Assembly (NCBI GenBank): GCA_027339745.1 | Contig: DAHWNW010000003.1 | Location: 45,868-109,867 of the forward strand | Source: Nitrososphaerota archaeon | GTDB lineage: Archaea; Thermoproteota; Nitrososphaeria; Nitrososphaerales; Gagatemarchaeaceae | DNA length: 64,000 bases | Direction of reading: 5' to 3' | Shown here: in pieces, positions 49,378-59,783 of the stretch | Layout: the number at the start of each line of letters is the position of its first letter | How positions within the stretch are numbered: position 1 is the stretch's first letter | Notes under the pieces: model-generated | What the model saw: the letters and a program-made list of their open reading frames with translations, nothing else | The model's database searches: none | What the model was told of the DNA's origin: nothing | Program-made: the position numbers and the translations under genes

Positions 49378-50511
49378 TCAGGCGCTGCTCATGGAGACGA
49401 GCTGCCCTATGGCTTCCTTCGCCACCTCTATGCTGTCCAGATAGTCCTTGACGAGGACGACCTCCCCGTCGGTGTGGCTCGTCCCTGTAGCCCCCGGGCC
49501 GTAGGTCACGCAGGAGACCCCCTTCTTGCGGGCGAAGGTGTTCATGTCCCCGGTCCCGGTCTTCCTGACGAGGACGGGCTTCTTGCCGAGGCGGAGGATG
49601 ACCGCCCTCTGGAAGGCCCTGACCAGTCTCGACCCTGGGTCCACTTCGTAGGCTTCCGTGGGGGGGCCAGGGAACACCTCCACCTCTACACCGTCCCTGG
49701 ACCCCCCCACAATGGACCGGACGTCTCCCAGGACCTGAGCCGAAGGGAGCCCCGGGGGGACACGGATGTCGAAGGTCGCGTCGCAGAAGCGTGGGACCAC
49801 GTTCTGATAGGAGCCGGCGCTCACAAGCGTTGGGGAAATTGACAGGGACCTGAAGTGGTCCACGTTCTGCTGCGCTGCCTCGTAGTCCCTGAGCCTCCCG
49901 AGTAGGGAGACGAACTCGTCAAAGGCGCTCCTGTGGGCCCAGGGCGACCCCGCGTGCCCCCCGAGGGTCCGGACGACTACCCGAAGGCTCACCCTGCCCC
50001 TGTATCCTATGGTAATCCTCTCTGCCCCGCTGGGCTCGCCGAACACCGCGTAGTCGTAGGTTGAGGCGCCCCTGGCGAGCTCCTCAACCCCTGCGCCGTC
50101 CCCTTCCTCTTCTGTGGCCCCGGCGAAGGTTATCCTTACCCCTGAGTCCGCGGCCCTGGCCCCCGCCAGGAGGAGGGCGCACAGAGGCGACTTGGCGTCG
50201 GCCGCCCCTCTGCCGTAGACGGAGTCCTCGGTCATCCTCACCGGGAGCCTCCCGGGGACGGTGTCCATGTGACCGCAGAGGAGGAGCCTAGGCTTGCCCC
50301 TTCCCAACTCTCCGACCACGTTCCCCGCCGCGTCTCTCCTCACCCTCGAGTATCCCAGACGCCGCATGCTGTCTGCGAGGAAGGCCGCCAGCTCTCCCTC
50401 CTCCTTCGTGGGGGAGTAAATCTTCACGGAGTCGACGAGGAGCTTGACCGCCTCGTCGTCAGGGCCGCTCATCTCTCGCTGACGGCCCACTGCTGGAAGG
50501 GTGGGGCGCAC
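49378..50511 (-). CDS. lysK: [LysW]-lysine/ornithine hydrolase
   Basis: M20-family metallopeptidase that releases lysine or ornithine from the LysW carrier, the last step of carrier-bound synthesis. Metal ligands are in LLCGHMDTVPG, GRGAADAKS, ATEEEGDGAG and TSHTDGE near the end. The 377 residues include 13 extra N-terminal ones; an ATG at 50472 (MSGPDDEAVKLLV) may be the real start. It closes the argG-to-lysK operon. Confidence 0.92.
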   Translation of the reverse strand: MRPTLPAVGRQREMSGPDDEAVKLLVDSVKIYSPTKEEGELAAFLADSMRRLGYSRVRRDAAGNVVGELGRGKPRLLLCGHMDTVPGRLPVRMTEDSVYGRGAADAKSPLCALLLAGARAADSGVRITFAGATEEEGDGAGVEELARGASTYDYAVFGEPSGAERITIGYRGRVSLRVVVRTLGGHAGSPWAHRSAFDEFVSLLGRLRDYEAAQQNVDHFRSLSISPTLVSAGSYQNVVPRFCDATFDIRVPPGLPSAQVLGDVRSIVGGSRDGVEVEVFPGPPTEAYEVDPGSRLVRAFQRAVILRLGKKPVLVRKTGTGDMNTFARKKGVSCVTYGPGATGTSHTDGEVVLVKDYLDSIEVAKEAIGQLVSMSSA

Positions 50512-50527: not shown

Positions 50528-51718
50528 TCAGAACCGCCCCGCCTCCGCTTCGGTTATGACCCCGTCCAATACATCGAGCACCCTGGCCACCTGCGCATCC
50601 TCGACCACGAGAGGGGGGAGGAACCTGAAGGTGTCCCTCCCGGAGTATGCCGTGATGACCCCCCGGGCCTGCGCGGCCAGGAGCATAGAGTGTATGTCCA
50701 CCCTAGTCTGCAGGGCTAGCATGAGCCCCAGTCCGCGCACCTCCCTGACGAGCCTATGGGCGGAAGATATCCTGGAGAGCCCCGACTTCAGCGCCTCCCC
50801 CTTCTCCCTCGCCCTGGCGGAGAGGTCGTTCCTGGCGATGAAGTCGAGGGTGGCCGAGCCAGCGGCGCAGGAGAGCGGATTACCGGCGAAGGTGCTGGTG
50901 TGCTCGCCCCCCTTCAGGCTTTCGGCGACCTCGCCGGTGGAGACGACGGCGCCTATAGGGAGCCCTCCACCGAGCCCCTTCGACACGGTCATTATGTCCG
51001 GGACGACCCCCCAGTGCTCGGAAGCCCACATCATCCCCGTCCTCCCCAGGCCAGACTGGATTTCGTCGAAGATCAGCAGGGCCCCGTTCCTGTTGCAGAT
51101 CTCTCTCACCTCCTTGAAGTAGCCGTCAGGGGGGACGACGACACCGCTCTCCCCCTGGACTGGCTCGGCGATCACCGCCGCGGTGTCTCCGTCGACCATC
51201 GACTCCAGCGACTTCGCATCGCCGTAGTCAGCGAACACGAACCGGTCTAGGAGCGGGCCGAAAGGGTCCCTGTACTTTTTGTTCCACGTAGCCGAGAGGG
51301 AGCCGTAGGTCTTGCCGTGGAAGGCGCCTGTCATCGCCACCATCTTCTTCCTGGATGTGCGCCGCCTTGCTAACTTGATGGCCGCCTCCACCGACTCGGT
51401 CCCGGTGTTAGTGAGCAGCACCTTCTCCAACCCCTTCGGCGCGGCCTTCGCAAGCCGCTCCACGAAGCCGGCCCTGACGTCGTTGTAGTAAGAGCCGTGG
51501 CATGTAATCAGCCTTCCAGCCTGCTCCCGCACTGCGTCGACCACGAAGTCGTTGCAGTGGCCGACCAGGGCCACCCCGATCCCTGACATGAAGTCGATGT
51601 ACTCCTTCCCCTCAGAGTCCCAGACGAGGGACCCCTTCCCCCTCGCCAGAGCCAACGGGAATTTGTTGAAGGCGTGGGCCTCATAGGAGTCTTCCAGGCC
51701 GCGGGTCCGCTCAGTCAT
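50528..51718 (-). CDS. lysJ: [LysW]-aminoadipate semialdehyde/glutamate semialdehyde aminotransferase
   Basis: Class III PLP aminotransferase that aminates the LysW-bound semialdehyde with glutamate. The PLP Lys is in MTVSKGLGGGLPIGAV; other blocks are NTGTESVEAAIKLAR and FDEIQSGLGRTG. ATG 51718 overlaps the lysZ stop as ATGA, so the track's start at 51736 is less likely. In archaea with one copy, the enzyme serves both lysine and arginine synthesis. Confidence 0.93.
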   Translation of the reverse strand: MTERTRGLEDSYEAHAFNKFPLALARGKGSLVWDSEGKEYIDFMSGIGVALVGHCNDFVVDAVREQAGRLITCHGSYYNDVRAGFVERLAKAAPKGLEKVLLTNTGTESVEAAIKLARRRTSRKKMVAMTGAFHGKTYGSLSATWNKKYRDPFGPLLDRFVFADYGDAKSLESMVDGDTAAVIAEPVQGESGVVVPPDGYFKEVREICNRNGALLIFDEIQSGLGRTGMMWASEHWGVVPDIMTVSKGLGGGLPIGAVVSTGEVAESLKGGEHTSTFAGNPLSCAAGSATLDFIARNDLSARAREKGEALKSGLSRISSAHRLVREVRGLGLMLALQTRVDIHSMLLAAQARGVITAYSGRDTFRFLPPLVVEDAQVARVLDVLDGVITEAEAGRF

Positions 51719-52524
51719 GGCGCTATCACCGTGCACCCCTCGTGAGAGAGGGCCCTTGACAGGGGGGCGTCCTTGGTGCCAGAACAGATCACAGCCTCCT
51801 TGACTCCGCCCTTCACCGCCTCCACCGCGGCTATTACCTTCTTCTGCATGCCAAACCCTATCTTCGGGAGGGACGCCGAAGCCTCCACGGCGGAGAGACG
51901 CCTCACCAGCGACCCGTCGAGTCTGAGCCCATCCACGTCTGTCGCGAAGATCACCACGTCGGCCTTTGCCCCTGCTGCTATGGAACCCGCCGCCTTGTCT
52001 CCGTCTATGTTGAGCGGCTCCCCGTCCTCCCCCACAGCCACGGGCGAGACCACTGGGACGTATCCCGTGCCGAGGAGGAGGTCCAGGAGGGATGAGTTGA
52101 TCCCCCTGACCCTTCCAGTGTATCCCCCCTCGATGGCCACCCTCCGGCCCCTCTCGTCCACGATCACCAGCTTCGTCTTCCGCGAGGCGGTGATCAACGC
52201 CCCGTCTTCCCCCGCAAGGGAGACGCCCTTCACCCCCGCCCTGAAGAGAGACTGCACCAACCGCTTGGCGAGGAGGCCGCTCATGACCATCTGGTAGATC
52301 TCAGCCGTCTCCCTGTCCGTGTACCTGCTTCTGATCCCGTCTGGAGAGACTACGAAACGTTGCTCCTTCCCGAGCCTGGTCGCGTACTCAGTCACCACGT
52401 CCCCCCCGCCGTGCACGAGGACGAGCTGGTGGGAGGAAGAGAGCGTCGCCGCGTCCTGGACCAGAGCCTCAGGGACGCCGGCTTTCATCAGGCTCCCGCC
52501 AATCTTCACGACCACCCTCAACAC
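51715..52524 (-). CDS. lysZ: [LysW]-aminoadipate/glutamate kinase
   Basis: Amino acid kinase of the N-acetylglutamate kinase family that phosphorylates the side chain of LysW-bound aminoadipate or glutamate. VVKIGGSLMKAG binds phosphate, LVHGGGDVVTEY is the family block, and NIDGDKAAGSIAAG lies near the ATP site. The 269 residues are normal. It starts one base from the lysY stop and couples to lysJ by a four-base overlap. Confidence 0.93.
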   Translation of the reverse strand: MLRVVVKIGGSLMKAGVPEALVQDAATLSSSHQLVLVHGGGDVVTEYATRLGKEQRFVVSPDGIRSRYTDRETAEIYQMVMSGLLAKRLVQSLFRAGVKGVSLAGEDGALITASRKTKLVIVDERGRRVAIEGGYTGRVRGINSSLLDLLLGTGYVPVVSPVAVGEDGEPLNIDGDKAAGSIAAGAKADVVIFATDVDGLRLDGSLVRRLSAVEASASLPKIGFGMQKKVIAAVEAVKGGVKEAVICSGTKDAPLSRALSHEGCTVIAP

Positions 52525-52525
52525 G

Positions 52526-53587
52526 CTACACCGGGTGGAGGGACGCCATCGCCAGCCCCGACGCCTCGTCCAATCCTAGCATGAGGTTCATCGACTGGAC
52601 AGCGTTCCCCGCTGCCCCCTTGATCAGGTTGTCAGTGGCGCCCAGGGCGACTATCCTCCCTGTCCTCTCCTCCGTCTCGAATCCGACGTCGCAGAAGTTC
52701 GAGCCGATGACGAGTTTCGGGTCTGGGAGCCTGAAAGGACCATGCTTGTCCTTGACTATCCTGACGAAGCGGCACCCTGAGTAAGCTTCGCGGTACGCCT
52801 TCCATATGTCTATGGTATTCACTCTCCCTGACGCGAAGAGATGGGATGTGGTCAGGATACCCCTCACTATGTTCACCCCGTGGGCCGACATCGAGACCTT
52901 GATCCGGACGCCAGCGATAGCCGATAGGACCTGCTCTATCTCAGCGGCGTGCCTGTGCCCAGCCGGCTTGTAGGGCCTGACCACGTTGAACCTCTCCGAG
53001 AAGTGCGTCGCGAGGGAGGGCTTGCCTCCTGACCCGGACGAGCCGACCTTCGCGTCGACCACGATGTGTTCGGTGTCCACCCCCAGAGACTTCGTCCTGA
53101 GGAGCGGGGCGAGGGCGAGGATGGTGGTGATTGCGGTGCACCCGGGGGAGGCCACGAGCCTAGCACCCTTCACCTCCTCCCGGTTCAGCTCGGGAATCGA
53201 TAGGACGAACTTCTCTAGGAGGTCTGGGCGAGGGTGTTCGTAGCCGTACCAGACTGGATATTGGGCGCTGTCCCCGAGCCTGAAGTCAGCGCTGAGGTCT
53301 ACTATCCTGAGCCCCGCGTCTGCGAGCTGGGGTATCACCTTCGCCGACTCCCCGTGTGGGAGGGCCGCGAAAACGACGTCGGCCGAAGCCACGAGTTTGG
53401 ATGGGTCGAATGAGACGAACTTCAGGTCGGTGACCCCTCTGAGGTTCGGGTGGACCCTGAAGACGTACTCCCCGGCATACCTCCTCGAAGTGGCGTATGC
53501 CACCTCGGCTTCGGGGTGCTGAAGGAGCAGGCGGAGCAGCTCCCCGCCTATGTACCCTGAACCTGCGAGCACGCCCACGCGGACCAA
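52526..53587 (-). CDS. lysY: [LysW]-aminoadipyl/glutamyl phosphate reductase
   Basis: NADPH-dependent reductase homologous to ArgC. The Rossmann motif GVLAGSGYIGGELLRLL is at the start and the catalytic Cys is in SPGCTAITTILAL; HRHAAEIEQVL carries a further family block. At 353 residues it matches LysY. It lies between lysX and lysZ as in Thermus and other archaea. Confidence 0.93.
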   Translation of the reverse strand: MVRVGVLAGSGYIGGELLRLLLQHPEAEVAYATSRRYAGEYVFRVHPNLRGVTDLKFVSFDPSKLVASADVVFAALPHGESAKVIPQLADAGLRIVDLSADFRLGDSAQYPVWYGYEHPRPDLLEKFVLSIPELNREEVKGARLVASPGCTAITTILALAPLLRTKSLGVDTEHIVVDAKVGSSGSGGKPSLATHFSERFNVVRPYKPAGHRHAAEIEQVLSAIAGVRIKVSMSAHGVNIVRGILTTSHLFASGRVNTIDIWKAYREAYSGCRFVRIVKDKHGPFRLPDPKLVIGSNFCDVGFETEERTGRIVALGATDNLIKGAAGNAVQSMNLMLGLDEASGLAMASLHPV

Positions 53588-53589
53588 GG

Positions 53590-54441
53590 CTATCTCCTCG
53601 CCGATCCTGCAACGTAGCTGATCAGCCTCGAGGGGATGTCGAACCCCACGGCGGACTGGGCCCCCTTGAACTCGACGGTATTGTTGACTTCGTGAACAGT
53701 GTAGCCTGACTCAGGCTCCATGGCGTCGACCCCGAGTATGCCGCCACCCACTGCCTCGGCTGCCTTCAGGATGATCTCTGAGAGCTCGGCGTCGGGCTTG
53801 AACGCCTCTGATGTCGCGCCTCGGGCGACGTTGGTCCTCCACTCCCCTGGGGGGGCGACCCGGTGGACGCACGCGACGATGCTGTCGCCGGCAACGATCG
53901 CCCTGACATCCCTCGGCGGCCTGTTTACGTACTCCTGAAGGTAGTACATGTGCTGCTCCTGCGGGTTCGCGAGCTCCTCCTTGAACTCGATTAGCGAGTC
54001 CAGTGTTGCCCTGTCCCGGACCACGGTCACCATTCGCCCCCAGCTCCCGGTGAACGGCTTCAGCACCAGGGGGTAGCCGATGGTCTCTGCAGCCTGCTCA
54101 GCGGCCTCCGGGGTGAGGGCGAGGAGGGTGCGCGGCGTCGGGACGCCAGCGTTCGAAAGAGCGATGCTGGTGGCGAGCTTGTTGCTGCAGGTTTCGGCCA
54201 CCGCATGGCTGTTGACGACTTGCATACCCGCCCCCTCCAAAACTCTGGTGAGAAGCGACGACCTGTAGTGGCTGATGCAGCGCTGGAGCACCACGTCCCC
54301 AAACTCCGGTCGCTTCTTCGGGACCTCGAAGACGAGCCCTTTGACGTCGACGAGCGACCCCCCGATGCCAGCTGCTTCGGCGGCTTCGCTGAGCGCCTTC
54401 TCCTCCCACCTGAGCCTGTCGAAGGTTATGGTGAGCTTCAC
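53590..54441 (-). CDS. lysX: LysW aminoadipate/glutamate ligase (ATP-grasp)
   Basis: RimK-like ATP-grasp ligase that links the amino group of aminoadipate or glutamate to the C-terminal Glu of LysW. ATP-grasp landmarks are present: PLVLKPFTGSWGRMV, then VRAIVAGDSIVAC, and the metal block VHEVNNTVEFKG. The GTG start overlaps the lysW stop by one base. A single lysX here fits an enzyme accepting both glutamate and aminoadipate; a separate ArgX may exist elsewhere in the genome. Confidence 0.93.
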   Translation of the reverse strand: MKLTITFDRLRWEEKALSEAAEAAGIGGSLVDVKGLVFEVPKKRPEFGDVVLQRCISHYRSSLLTRVLEGAGMQVVNSHAVAETCSNKLATSIALSNAGVPTPRTLLALTPEAAEQAAETIGYPLVLKPFTGSWGRMVTVVRDRATLDSLIEFKEELANPQEQHMYYLQEYVNRPPRDVRAIVAGDSIVACVHRVAPPGEWRTNVARGATSEAFKPDAELSEIILKAAEAVGGGILGVDAMEPESGYTVHEVNNTVEFKGAQSAVGFDIPSRLISYVAGSARR

Positions 54442-54614
54442 TATTCTCCCCAGTCCTCTCCGACCTTCTCTGCCGGCTTGAGTACGGCACTGCCGTTGGA
54501 CAGCTCAGCAACCTCGTATTCGGACGAGCAGTCCCTGCAAGAGACGAGCTCCCCGACTATGGCGTCGTCTGGGACGGTCAGCGCGGCTCCGCACTCGTTG
54601 CAACTCGTGTTCAA
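54441..54614 (-). CDS. lysW: Amino-group carrier protein LysW
   Basis: This 57-residue gene is absent from the ORF track. The reverse strand gives MNTSCNECGAALTVPDD, a zinc site with C5, C8, C26 and C29 (SCRDCSSEYEV), and the diagnostic C-terminal EDWGE, whose last Glu carries the substrate. The TTG start overlaps the argH stop (TTGA). The protein protects the amino group during the following steps and is recognised through its acidic surface. The assignment is essentially certain. Confidence 0.96.
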   Translation of the reverse strand: MNTSCNECGAALTVPDDAIVGELVSCRDCSSEYEVAELSNGSAVLKPAEKVGEDWGE

Positions 54615-56095
54615 TCTACTGATTTCACCTCCCGGGTCAGTCCATCCGTCGTAGCGCGCAACCTCCGCTCCGACGCCGTCAGCTCTGCCTTCAGCGTGGA
54701 GAGTGATGACCGCGTAGAGGTGATGACTGCTTCGCGCTGCCTGATCTCCCTCAGCATGGACCGGGGGTTGGCCCCGCCCTTGGTAGCGATCCTCTCGAGG
54801 AACCGTTGGGGGTCGAGGAGGCTCTCGATGGTCACCCGGTCCACTGAAACCTTCTTCCCCAAGTCTGCAGAGACGCGTGCGAGCCTAGACACCGCCACCT
54901 CCTGGAGGGGGCTCCCTGACTCCGCCGAGGCTCTCACGAGCTCGCCCACCATTGCGTGGGCCTGGCGGAAGGAAATTCCACGCTCGCTGACGAGATAGTT
55001 GGCGAGCCCCACCGCCGTCGAGCCGTCACCGGAGACCGCCGAGTTCAGGCGCCCCTTCATTAGCGAGGCAGACGCGACCATGCCTGCGAGGACGCTCAGG
55101 GACGCCGTCGCGTCGTCGATTCCACGCCAGAGATGAGGTGTGATCTCTTGGAGGTCGAGGTTGTAGGAATATGGGAGAGCTTTCAGGATGGCGCAGGCCG
55201 CGACCAGCCCCCCTATGACTGACCCTGCCTTGGCCCTGGCCATCTCAGCGGTCACTGCATTCTTCTTCTGGGGCATTATGCTGCTGGAGGCCGCGTAGGA
55301 ATCGTCGAGCTCGATGAACCCGAACTCCGCGGAGCTCCAGAGGATCAGCTCTTCGGCAAGCCTGCTGGCGTCCAAGGCGGCGATGGCCGCGAAGGAGAGC
55401 GCTTCCACGGCGAAGTCCCTCGATGAGACCGCGTCCATGGAGTTTCTGACCAGGCCGGAAAAGCCGAGGAGCCCTGCGACGTACCTCCTGTCGAGCTTTA
55501 CCGACGTCCCGGTCATGGCGGCAGACCCCATGGGGGAGAGGTTGACGCGCGTGTAGAGCTGGAGCGCCCTCTCAGCGTCGCGCTGGAAGGCGTCGAAGTG
55601 GGCGAAGAGGTGGTGCGCGAAGGTCGTCGGCTGGGCTCTCTGCAGATGGGTGTACCCTGGGACTAGGACAGCGCCGTGCTTCCTCGCCTGGCTCAGCAGG
55701 GCCGACTGGAGCCCTGCGACTGAGCTGACAAGGGCGATAATCGAGTCTCTTAGCTCCATCCGTATGGCGGTGGCGACCTGGTCGTTCCTGCTCTTCCCGT
55801 AGTTGATGAACCCTGCCGTTTCCACGCCGAGGGCGTCGACCGCAGCCTGTTCGAGCTGCTGGTGGAAGTCCTCTGCCTTGGCGCCTGGCAGTATCTCTGC
55901 GGAGGCCCCGGCAAGAAACTTCGCGCACCTCGCCCCGACCTTGCGGTCCACCTCCCCTGCCCTGACAAGGGCTACCATGTGGGCCAAGTTCACCAGGATG
56001 ACCTTGCGGGCGATGCGCCCGTCGTCGGCCATCGAGGAGGTGAAGGCGAGGGCCTCGTCACTGGGCTTCCTTAGCCTTGGTCCTCTGATGTCCAT
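54611..56095 (-). CDS. argH: Argininosuccinate lyase
   Basis: Last step of arginine synthesis, releasing fumarate. The superfamily signature is SSSIMPQKKNAVTAEMAR. Other blocks are FINYGKSRNDQVATAIRME and GYTHLQRAQPTTFAHHL with the catalytic His. The 494 residues are normal. It is overlapped by argG upstream and lysW downstream, and so is tightly coupled in the operon. Its fumarate can enter the cycle through the fumarase at 29157. Confidence 0.95.
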   Translation of the reverse strand: MDIRGPRLRKPSDEALAFTSSMADDGRIARKVILVNLAHMVALVRAGEVDRKVGARCAKFLAGASAEILPGAKAEDFHQQLEQAAVDALGVETAGFINYGKSRNDQVATAIRMELRDSIIALVSSVAGLQSALLSQARKHGAVLVPGYTHLQRAQPTTFAHHLFAHFDAFQRDAERALQLYTRVNLSPMGSAAMTGTSVKLDRRYVAGLLGFSGLVRNSMDAVSSRDFAVEALSFAAIAALDASRLAEELILWSSAEFGFIELDDSYAASSSIMPQKKNAVTAEMARAKAGSVIGGLVAACAILKALPYSYNLDLQEITPHLWRGIDDATASLSVLAGMVASASLMKGRLNSAVSGDGSTAVGLANYLVSERGISFRQAHAMVGELVRASAESGSPLQEVAVSRLARVSADLGKKVSVDRVTIESLLDPQRFLERIATKGGANPRSMLREIRQREAVITSTRSSLSTLKAELTASERRLRATTDGLTREVKSVD

Positions 56096-57302
56096 TATCT
56101 TCTTTTTCCTCTGCTCGCGAGCTGAGCCCGGAGGCGACCCTAGACTGGAGCCCCCAGAGCTCTATGAAGCCAACAGCGCTCTTCTGGTCGAAGGTAGAGC
56201 CTCGGCCATAGGTGGAGAGCCCTATGTCGTAGATGGAGTATTCAGACGACCTGCCCACTACCCTGGCGGACCCCTTGTATAGCTTCAGTTTCACCGAACC
56301 CGTCACCCTGTGCTGGGTTGCGGCGATGAAGCGGTCCAGGGCCGGCCTGAGCGGCTCCAGCCAGAGCCCCGAGTAGACCAGCCATGCCCACTCCCTCTCC
56401 ACTTGCGCCTTGAAAGCGAGCTCGTGGCGGGTCAGGACGAGCTTCTCCAGGTCCCTGTGGGCGTCTATGATGACCGACGCCGCTGGGCATTCGTAGACTT
56501 CGCGCGACTTTATCCCCACCAATCTGTCTTCGATGTGGTCTATCCTCCCGACGCCGTGCGAGCCTGCGAGCTCATTCACGTAGCTGACCAGCGCGAGGGG
56601 ATCCATGGCCCTTCCGTCGACCCTCGTGGGGACCCCCTCCCTGAAGCCGAGCTCCAGGTACCCGGGCTCGTTCGGCGCTTCCTCGGGGGAGGCGGTCCAT
56701 TCGAAGGCGTCCTCTGGCGGCTCTGTCCCGGGATTCTCGAGGGGTCCGCTTTCCACAGACCTTCCCCATATGTTCTGGTCGACGCTGAATATCGACTTCG
56801 ATGGTTTGACCGGGAGCCCGCGCTCCTGGGCGTAGGCGATCTCCTCGTCCCTGCTCATGTTCCACTCGCGGACGGGGGCTATGACCTGCAGGGACGGGTT
56901 CATCGCCCTCACCGTAACGTCGATCCTCACCTGGTCGTTCCCCTTCCCCGTGCAGCCGTGGGCAACCGCGTCGGCGCCTTCCTTCTCGGCCACCTCGACG
57001 AGCTTCTTCGCGATGAGGGGCCGTCCCAGGGCGGTGCTGAGGGGGTACTTCCCTTCGTAGAGGGCGTTGGCCTTGATCGACGGGAAGACGTAGTCCCTGA
57101 TGAATTCATCCTTGGCGTCTATGGTGTAATGATTCCTGGCGCCGATCTCTCTAGAGCGCTTCGCGACATCTGCCATATCGTCCCTCTGACCGAGATCGAG
57201 CGTGACAGTGACGACCTCGGCGTCGTACTTCTCCTGGAGCCACTTGACGGACACGGAGGTGTCAAGGCCTCCGGAGAACGCGAGAGCAACGGTTCGGCGC
57301 AA
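56058..57302 (-). CDS. argG: Argininosuccinate synthase
   Basis: Condenses citrulline and aspartate with ATP. The PP-loop is LAFSGGLDTSVSVKWLQ; GCTGKGNDQVRI and PVREWNMSRDEEI are family blocks. The C-terminal extension (EEKEDNGHQRTKAKEAQ) overlaps argH by 38 bases. The TTG start lies about 26 bases after a minus-strand TATA box at 57329-57338, so the transcript is probably leaderless. It leads the operon argG-argH-lysWXYZJK. Confidence 0.95.
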   Translation of the reverse strand: MRRTVALAFSGGLDTSVSVKWLQEKYDAEVVTVTLDLGQRDDMADVAKRSREIGARNHYTIDAKDEFIRDYVFPSIKANALYEGKYPLSTALGRPLIAKKLVEVAEKEGADAVAHGCTGKGNDQVRIDVTVRAMNPSLQVIAPVREWNMSRDEEIAYAQERGLPVKPSKSIFSVDQNIWGRSVESGPLENPGTEPPEDAFEWTASPEEAPNEPGYLELGFREGVPTRVDGRAMDPLALVSYVNELAGSHGVGRIDHIEDRLVGIKSREVYECPAASVIIDAHRDLEKLVLTRHELAFKAQVEREWAWLVYSGLWLEPLRPALDRFIAATQHRVTGSVKLKLYKGSARVVGRSSEYSIYDIGLSTYGRGSTFDQKSAVGFIELWGLQSRVASGLSSRAEEKEDNGHQRTKAKEAQ

Positions 57303-57328
57303 ACTTCGTGACGGACGGCCTGAACAAC

Positions 57329-57338
57329 GCTTTTATAG
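57329..57338 (-). promoter_or_regulatory. TATA box of the argG operon
   Basis: On the minus strand CTATAAAAGC lies about 26 bases before the argG TTG. It is a near-consensus archaeal TATA box and places the transcription start at or next to the start codon. The inverted-repeat operator lies 22-54 bases upstream of it. Confidence 0.7.
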
Positions 57339-57359
57339 ATTTTGGACAGGATAGCTTCG

Positions 57360-57392
57360 TTTTGGTCAAACATGACCAAAAATTGGTCAAAA
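57360..57392. promoter_or_regulatory. Inverted-repeat operator between argG and the ACT-domain gene
   Basis: TTTTGGTCA-AACA-TGACCAAAA is a perfect 9-bp inverted repeat with a 4-base spacer. It is followed after one base by a third half-site, TTGGTCAAAA. It ends about 10 bases before the ATG (57403) of the plus-strand gene, so a bound protein should shut that gene off. For argG it lies upstream of the TATA box, where an activator or a TFB-helping factor would sit. The protein that binds it is unknown; the neighbouring ACT-domain product is the obvious candidate. Confidence 0.7.
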
Positions 57393-57402
57393 CGGCCTCT
57401 GT

Positions 57403-58069
57403 CATGAAAGCGGTCAGAGAAGAGGTGGACTCGGACCTCTCCGTCCAGGACGCCCTCGCGAGGGACTACGCGAACCTTAGCGCCCTCGCCAGGATGCTTG
57501 CCCCTAGGGTGGCGGCCAGGACCGGGAGGGGGGCGAAGGGGGTGAGCGAGGTGGGGGTCGCAACAGCCCTCAAGCGCCTCCGGGGTTCGTATTCGCCGGC
57601 CCCTCCGAAGGTGAGCAGGGTGCTCGCGGGGAGCGTAGTCAACGTAAGGACTCACGTCTCCAGGATATCCGTGGAGAAGACAAAGCGGACCCTTCAGGTC
57701 GTCGGCGTGCTGCTCTCAGGCAACCACGAGGATTTCATCCAGGTGTCGGAGTCGCTCTCGTCCATCACGCTAATCTTCGACCAGAGACTCCACCGGATGG
57801 TCAAGAAGGCGCTCGGGAACGCCGAGATACTTGACGAAGGGGAGGAGGGGGCGGCCATAACGGTCCACAGCCCCGAGGACATAGTCACCACGCCTGGGTG
57901 CGTCAGCGCGCTCTACAACCAGCTGTTCAGGAAGAAGGTGAACGTCGAGGATACGGTCAGTTGCTTCACCGACACCATCATGGTGGTAGGGATGAAAGAC
58001 GCGAGTAGGGCCTTCGAGGCTATGACCGAGCTGGTGGGCGAAGAGCAGAGGAGGCTCGGCGAGGAGTGA
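57403..58069 (+). CDS. ACT-domain protein, probable amino acid-responsive regulator
   Basis: The N-terminal 70 residues are helical and could form a winged helix (SVQDALARDYANLSALARML, then VSEVGVATALKRLR). Two ACT-like ligand modules follow (SVVNVRTHVSRISVE and TTPGCVSALYNQLFRKKVNV to SCFTDTIMVVGMKDAS). ACT modules bind amino acids and change shape. The track starts at 57308, but that would run through the operator; ATG 57403 just after it is preferred. Its place opposite argG suggests lysine or arginine feedback control. The name is inferred from domains and context. The nitrilase gene overlaps its stop. Confidence 0.65.
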
Positions 58070-58878
58070 GGTTGAACACTGGACCGCAGGGGAGGACGGG
58101 GGACCATGTCATTAAGGTCACGGTCTGCGAGATGCCCGACGAGAGGTCTGCGTTCGGGCTCTGGTGGGAGCGTCTCGGGGCGCACGCAAAGCACGAGGGG
58201 AGCGACCTAGCGCTCCTCCCCGAGATGCCGTTTTCCGGGTGGTTGTTCGCCGACCCGAAGTTCGGCCGAGCTGCGTGGGACGACTCAGTCGAAGCGCACA
58301 GGCGATGGATTGAGAGGATCCCCGAGCTCGGGGTGGCCATCGTCGCCGGGTCTAGGCCGGTTGAAGTCCGCGGGAGGAGGTTCAACGAAGGCTTCGTGCA
58401 GACCGCCGACGGGATGACAGGAGAGCACAGGAAGCGCAATCTCCCTGACCAGCCCGGCTTCTACGAAGCCTCATGGTACGTGCGTGGAGGTAAGAGGTTC
58501 TCCGTCTTTGAAGTACACGGCTGGAAGATCGGTTTCCTCATCTGTAGCGACCTCTGGTCGGTCTGGAACGCGAGAGCCTATGGGAAGCGTGGCGCTGATG
58601 CGATACTGGTCCCCAGGGCCACGGGGCTCGGCGTCGACAAGTGGCTCGCGGGCGGAAGGACAGCGGCGGTGGTGTCTGGCGCGTACTGCCTTTCATCGAA
58701 CAGGTCGGGGGGAGTCGGCGACGCTAGGTTCGGGGGGATGGGGTGGGCCGTGGACCCTGATGGTGAGGTCCTCGGGATTACGACCCCCGACGAGCCGTTC
58801 GCGACCGTGGAGTTGGACATGAGGAAGGCGCGGAAGGCGAAGAAGACGTACCCAAGGGACGCATTCGGAGAAGACTAG
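58066..58878 (+). CDS. Carbon-nitrogen hydrolase (nitrilase superfamily)
   Basis: The catalytic Glu-Lys-Cys triad is visible: LLPEMPFSGW, TGEHRKRNLPD and IGFLICSDLW. The 270 residues match amidase-type members such as omega-amidase or N-carbamoyl hydrolases. The GTG start overlaps the upstream ACT gene's stop (GTGA), so the two are coupled. It could hydrolyse an amide linked to amino acid metabolism. Substrate unknown. It is convergent with ftsY. Confidence 0.88.
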   Translation: MRLNTGPQGRTGDHVIKVTVCEMPDERSAFGLWWERLGAHAKHEGSDLALLPEMPFSGWLFADPKFGRAAWDDSVEAHRRWIERIPELGVAIVAGSRPVEVRGRRFNEGFVQTADGMTGEHRKRNLPDQPGFYEASWYVRGGKRFSVFEVHGWKIGFLICSDLWSVWNARAYGKRGADAILVPRATGLGVDKWLAGGRTAAVVSGAYCLSSNRSGGVGDARFGGMGWAVDPDGEVLGITTPDEPFATVELDMRKARKAKKTYPRDAFGED

Positions 58879-59783
58879 CGCCCCATCAGAGAGTTCAGGA
58901 AAGCTTTGGCGTCGAAGGGGGAGAGGTCGTCGTATCCTTGGCCCACGCCAAGGAAGAGGACGGGCTTGCCCGTCGTGTAGACTATTGACAGGGCGGCCCC
59001 GCCCCTGACGTCTGCGTCAGCCTTTGTCAGGATCGCCCCGTCGAATCCGACGTGCCGGTTGAAGAGCGCGGCCTGGGAGACAGCGTCGTTCCCGGTCAGG
59101 GCGTCAGCCACGAAGATTCGGAAGTCAGGCTTGACCACCCTGGCTATCTTTGCCATCTCTTCCATCAGGTTCTGGTTCGTCTGCATCCTACCGGCCGTGT
59201 CTATCAGGAGGCAATCCACGTGGTGCGCTCTAGCGTAAAGGACGCCGTCGCGGCCTACCGCTGCCGGATCAGCTCCATAGCCCTGCGCGACGACCTTGAG
59301 TGAGAGCCTGTCTGCGTGCTCCGACAGCTGCTCGATGGCACCAGGCCGATGGGTGTCGCCGGCCGCGCAGACGACGGAAAGCCCGTTCTTCTTCAGGTAG
59401 TGGGCAAACTTGGCCACCGTCGTCGTCTTGCCGGTGCCGTTGATCCCCAGGAAGAGGATGACGTAGGGCTCGCCCGTCTTCGCCTTGTCTCTGACATTGG
59501 ACACGATGTCGACGGTCCCTGCCCGTGCGAACGCTGACTCCAGGGAAGCGTTCAGCCGTTCCCCGACCACCTCCCCCGTGTCGACTGAGCGGTCTACCTT
59601 CGTCCCCTCCAGGGTCTTCTGCACCTCTGCGGTGAGGGCTTCGGCGACAGTCTGCGCCACGTCGCTCTCGATCAGCGAAATCTGGAAGTCGAAGATCACG
59701 CTGTCGAAGTCGCGACCGCTGAGCTGCTTTTCCCTTACGGCGCTGGTTATCGAGGAGAATGCCTGCTTCAGCCTGTCGAACAA
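58875..59783 (-). CDS. ftsY: Signal recognition particle receptor FtsY
   Basis: SRP GTPase of 302 residues with the N domain (MFDRLKQAFSSITSAVREK) and the G domain. G1 is GINGTGKTTTVAKFAHYL, DTHRPGA follows, G3 is DTAGRMQTN and the G4-like block is TKADAD. It docks ribosome-SRP complexes to SecYE. The acidic A domain is short or absent. It ends the rnp4-to-ftsY operon, a conserved archaeal order. Confidence 0.95.
   Translation of the reverse strand: MFDRLKQAFSSITSAVREKQLSGRDFDSVIFDFQISLIESDVAQTVAEALTAEVQKTLEGTKVDRSVDTGEVVGERLNASLESAFARAGTVDIVSNVRDKAKTGEPYVILFLGINGTGKTTTVAKFAHYLKKNGLSVVCAAGDTHRPGAIEQLSEHADRLSLKVVAQGYGADPAAVGRDGVLYARAHHVDCLLIDTAGRMQTNQNLMEEMAKIARVVKPDFRIFVADALTGNDAVSQAALFNRHVGFDGAILTKADADVRGGAALSIVYTTGKPVLFLGVGQGYDDLSPFDAKAFLNSLMGR

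Follow-up and report, generated by a model that had tools for sequence, protein, structure and literature searches.

A phased array of TTGGTCA half-sites at the argG promoter of Nitrososphaerales as the probable operator of an ACT-domain regulator of arginine biosynthesis

The DNA considered here, hereafter the window, is a stretch of 64,000 nucleotides from a Nitrososphaerota archaeon, in which a repeat array at 57360-57392 lies at the divergent promoter of argG and a gene for an ACT-domain protein (the ACT gene). argG, encoding argininosuccinate synthase from a TTG start, occupies 56058..57302 on the minus strand and is the first gene of the operon that we take to be regulated. The ACT gene occupies 57362..58069 on the plus strand, alternative starts at 57308 (open reading frame list) and at ATG 57404 being less likely; its product is a predicted regulator with a helical N-terminal domain and two aspartokinase-like ACT domains. 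Sequence reading places a TATA box at 57330..57339 (CTTTTATAGA on the plus strand for the ACT gene, TCTATAAAAG on the minus strand for argG), which appears to serve both promoters; the box and its distance from the array are kept in relatives.

At the core of the array, the inverted repeat TTTTGGTCA-AACA-TGACCAAAA, that is TTTTGGTCAAACATGACCAAAA, spans 57360-57381, and a third copy of the half-site, TTGGTCAAAA, follows at 57383-57392. The sequence TTTTGGTCAAACATGACCAAAA matched once in the window and never in 100 dinucleotide shuffles, so the operator-like repeat described in an earlier note on this DNA is real. It is very probably an operator. The three half-sites counted there are all present, yet the array is longer, with four half-sites in the window and up to five in relatives. 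The fourth is a weaker, degenerate half-site, H1 (TTGGACA, 57342..57348, plus strand), which adjoins the TATA box, stands 4 bp away from its TTTATA by sequence reading and overlaps the position of the transcription factor B (TFB) recognition element (BRE) of the argG promoter. It is followed by H3 (TTGGTCA, 57362..57368, plus strand) and, supported by both the sequence and relatives, by H4 (TGACCAA, 57373..57379, minus strand) and H5 (TTGGTCA, 57383..57389, plus strand), so that the starts fall at 0, +20, +31 and +41 counted from H1. At full length, in relatives, the array alternates between TTGGTCA and TGACCAA half-sites, as many as five, at intervals of one helical turn; the predicted operator spans about 49 bp, with all half-sites on one face of the DNA.

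The placement given in the earlier note stands: the array is upstream with respect to the arg promoter, and it covers the beginning of the ACT gene. It is not purely intergenic, because it overlaps the start of the ACT coding region. The ACT reading frame is open across the array, upstream of ATG 57404; H3 holds the probable TTG start codon (57362-57364), and the last two half-sites fall within its opening codons. Relatives without a start codon at the position of ATG 57404 point to TTG 57362 as the probable start, some 27 bases past the TATA box, a spacing that would suit a leaderless message. Despite this coding overlap, codon choice indicates a constraint on the DNA of the array itself. In 15 genomes of the same genus, codons −14 to −5 were identical in 84% of synonymous pairs vs 60% in the gene body, and none of 193 ten-codon windows in the body reached the constancy of the array.

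Conservation was assessed on 80 loci of the order; the relatives that bear names are Nitrososphaerales or Nitrososphaerota, and family labels such as f1 and f8 are those of the comparison tool. argG and the ACT gene were divergent in 80/80 of these loci, with the array at the shared promoter, 4 bp from the TATA box; the comparison of gene order that the earlier note had proposed thus found the array kept, within this taxonomic order, wherever the gene order is kept. Anchored on the TATA box, half-sites with at least 5/7 matches peaked at 0, +11, +20/21, +31/32 and +40-43, in mostly alternating orientation. At least two sites were present in 80/80 loci (shuffle maximum 48) and at least three in 76/80 (shuffle maximum 21). 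H1 was the best conserved half-site, mostly TTGGCCA or TTGGTCA in relatives, and its position carried a match of at least 5/7 in 88% of 31 genera, compared with 1.4% in the shuffled control. Four f13 loci have their start codon farther downstream, with the array still abutting the TATA box.

The array also follows the ACT gene. Outside the order, f40 and f27 retain the argG/ACT pair with half-sites, and in f25, f20 and f45, where carA-carB is the divergent partner of the ACT gene, the half-sites stay at that promoter. Twenty genomes have no ACT gene; argG is absent as well from 12 of them, including all seven from the genus of the window. In the other 8 genomes, which have argG, no half-site was found within 600 bp upstream of argG, and profile scores there were at chance level. 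As an observation on the genus itself, G018, G033 (96% complete) and five other genomes lack both argG and the ACT gene, a joint loss that suggests arginine auxotrophy in parts of the genus.

A second target gene appears within the order. In 10 genomes of f8, which we take to be the Nitrososphaeraceae, an array precedes argC; six of these arrays had not contributed to the profile, and one of the six genomes carries argC about 9 kb from argG. argC has no divergent gene there, and its array adjoins the TATA box from the same side as the argG array does, which ties the layout to arg promoters and not to self-control alone. A profile search of 36 genomes returned nothing beyond arg promoters below E=1e-3, and no lysine gene among its targets. 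The earlier note had suggested looking for further copies of the motif in the genome, especially before argF and lysine genes. With up to three mismatches, the inverted repeat occurs once in 762 kb of the same genome (control matches, 0), and the extra targets lie elsewhere, argC in Nitrososphaeraceae and carA in other families, lysine genes not being among them. The single site in the genus is explained by the arrangement of its arg genes in one operon.

The array, its geometry, the constraint on it at the DNA level, its link to the ACT gene and its arginine-pathway targets can all be read in the genome sequences. On this basis, we consider it likely that the array is the operator through which the ACT protein controls the arginine pathway, in whichever direction, and we conclude that the same array would also control the ACT protein's own gene. 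The array accompanies the gene of the neighbouring ACT protein and is lacking where that gene is lacking, which makes this protein, named as the regulator in the earlier note, the likely binder. For binding, ligand and direction of control, we infer the following scheme. In Nitrososphaerales and related Thermoproteota, the helical/ACT protein would regulate arginine biosynthesis as a one-component, amino-acid-responsive factor. Its copies would occupy the alternating TTGGTCA half-sites one helical turn apart, on one face of the DNA. Towards the arg promoter, which is that of argG, of argC in Nitrososphaeraceae and of carA in certain other families, the array stops a few bp upstream of the BRE/TATA; in the opposite direction it covers the start of the gene for the regulator itself. 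When the end product runs short, the bound protein would most likely aid TATA-binding protein and TFB at the arg promoter and keep the regulator gene blocked. Binding of the end product, which is probably arginine, to the ACT pair would switch the regulator off. The choice of arginine as presumed effector is drawn from the targets.

Provided that the array is the operator of the ACT protein, activation of the arg genes has, in our estimate, slightly better than an even chance, and repression of both genes, with H1 masking the BRE, falls just short of one. Activation with roadblock-type self-repression is weakly favoured because the layout at argG, argC and, as read from the sequence, carA matches that of Lrp-type activators; the preference is weak because H1 overlaps the BRE. 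Archaeal Lrp-type activators occupy a site immediately before the BRE, its distance held within narrow limits, and additional sites lie farther upstream; Ptr2 has a reading frame overlapping the control region of its target, and LysM controls a LysW operon (PMC2995911). Like the LysM and Ptr2 systems (Lrp/AsnC activators), the array offers a site of the activator type immediately before the BRE; at both argG and argC it lies 4 bp from the TATA box. The ACT protein, in contrast, has another build and another DNA word. The same regulator and operator might instead work as plain end-product repression, with the arginine-bound protein covering H1/BRE and its own gene start and turning both genes off; we regard this as a genuine possibility, though one well short of even. 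It agrees with the usual logic of biosynthetic operons and with the place of H1, the half-site kept best, over the BRE position at both argG and argC, but four of the five half-sites reach upstream, away from the arg promoter, even at argC where there is no divergent gene.

A different regulator, for example one of the Lrp type, could bind the array and leave the ACT protein a mere neighbour, perhaps an enzyme-free amino-acid sensor. Archaeal Lrp proteins do bind such phased arrays (PMC2995911), and the N-terminal domain of the ACT protein is unlike any known DNA-binding fold. We nonetheless consider this unlikely, given that the half-sites accompany the ACT gene from argG to carAB and are missing before argG in genomes without it. 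No Pfam or NCBIfam model covers the ACT protein, which gave weak matches to ACT_7 and aspartokinase, and across 54 homologues the only recurring models were ACT_7, ACT_9 and aspartokinase, with no AsnC-type helix-turn-helix (HTH) or RAM domain. In the predicted structure (predicted local distance difference test, pLDDT, 88), N-terminal helices precede two ACT domains. Foldseek matched the whole model best, among the matches shown, to aspartokinase regulatory domains (E about 4e-7), in agreement with a tandem ACT fold; the N-terminus reached Lrp entries only at E of about 8. Searches of PDB sequences with the ACT protein and with its N-terminus gave nothing useful.

With bacterial ArgR/AhrC the ACT protein would share the control of arginine genes and the sensing of an amino acid in its C-terminal part. 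The Pfam and NCBIfam scans matched neither the N- nor the C-terminal domain model of ArgR to it, and the ARG box of ArgR does not resemble TTGGTCA. The regulatory ACT domains of aspartokinase have the same tandem fold and weak profile similarity, whereas the ACT protein has no kinase domain and carries an unrelated helical N-terminal domain instead. Judged by its layout, the system would work like an Lrp activator, yet the ACT protein matched domain models of neither Lrp nor ArgR. The ACT protein or a relative probably belongs to COG2150 ("predicted regulator of amino acid metabolism, contains ACT domain"), which is archaeal and of similar size; the literature searched describes no target, operator or function for it. 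In the open literature, to which the search was confined, we found no earlier description of this operator or ACT protein and no described arginine regulator for Nitrososphaerales.

The repeat could also be a by-product of coding, since in LVKHDQKLVK, the opening segment of the ACT protein, the codons TTG GTC AAA recur, the frame stays open across the block and the residues there show partial conservation. This is very improbable and was rejected: codon constancy is in excess, H1 lies outside the gene, the array stands upstream of the start in other families, and the argC array fronts a different gene. A hairpin or attenuator in the RNA of the ACT gene is scarcely credible and was rejected. 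The RNA of the window does fold well (−14.1 kcal/mol, z −3.25), but folds in relatives are weak (z −1.1 to −1.9), changes in one arm go uncompensated in the other, and at argC the array precedes the promoter.

Several observations weigh against the ACT protein as binder of the array. The 80 loci share ancestry, so that their counts measure conservation and not 80 independent events. Losses of the ACT gene are likewise few events, the 8 genomes with argG and without the ACT gene being confined to few clades (f10 and two genera of f8). In f25, f20 and f45, the argG promoters, which lie apart from the ACT gene, have no array, and the distant homologues in f32 and f56 keep the argG link while TTGGTCA is absent from the promoter stretches read. 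The N-terminal domain modelled alone (pLDDT 81) had no solved look-alike by Foldseek and matched no known DNA-binding fold. We nevertheless infer that it is the DNA-binding domain, which makes it a candidate new domain of this kind. In its widest form, which we put forward tentatively and as somewhat short of even, the proposal is a new archaeal transcription factor family, in which aspartokinase-type ACT domains are coupled to a DNA-binding domain of unrecognised type, that would serve as the arginine regulator of much of Thermoproteota, bind a phased array of five half-sites by the TATA box, activate arg/car genes and block its own gene.

Nitrososphaerales include soil ammonia oxidisers. For arginine control in this order, the ACT protein, its DNA word, the layout and the targets form a set conserved enough for testing in cultured Nitrososphaera. 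The system also offers a comparative case of rewiring between regulator and targets, in which argG gave way to carA and argC was gained while the DNA word persisted.

Among more distant ACT genes, the neighbours are argG-argH (f32, f41, f56) or carAB near lysW (f28, G260). In f56 and f32 (L165-L167, L193, L196, L197) a homologue of about 30% identity is divergent from argG, and the promoter stretches read there hold no TTGGTCA; the DNA word may have changed in these families. In f43 and in f28, G347 (L186, L190, L192), the divergent neighbour of a homologue is a polar-amino-acid ABC transporter with binding protein, permease and ATPase, which may be an arginine importer. carAB and the transporter were assigned by sequence reading, with no family search.

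In the window, the minus-strand genes headed by argG continue with argH, argininosuccinate lyase (54611..56095), lysW, a 57-aa carrier protein with C-terminal EDWGE (54441..54614), an argX/lysX ligase gene (53590..54441), argC (52526..53587), which has its own second array in Nitrososphaeraceae, an argB-type [LysW] kinase gene (51715..52524), an argD-type aminotransferase gene (50528..51736) and an argE/lysK-type hydrolase gene (49378..50511). On the other side, a nitrilase-like gene (58066-58878) overlaps the end of the ACT gene and is followed by convergent ftsY (58875-59783), an order also seen in G019 and G040 (L136, L137). A second, distant family of the same build, with an HTH-like N-terminus and ACT domains (about 23-26% identity), occurs in the same genus and in f10 (L198:4578-5267; L202:4888-5550), next to a thermosome gene and an Lrp-like open reading frame, or to Hsp20/Cdc48-like genes.
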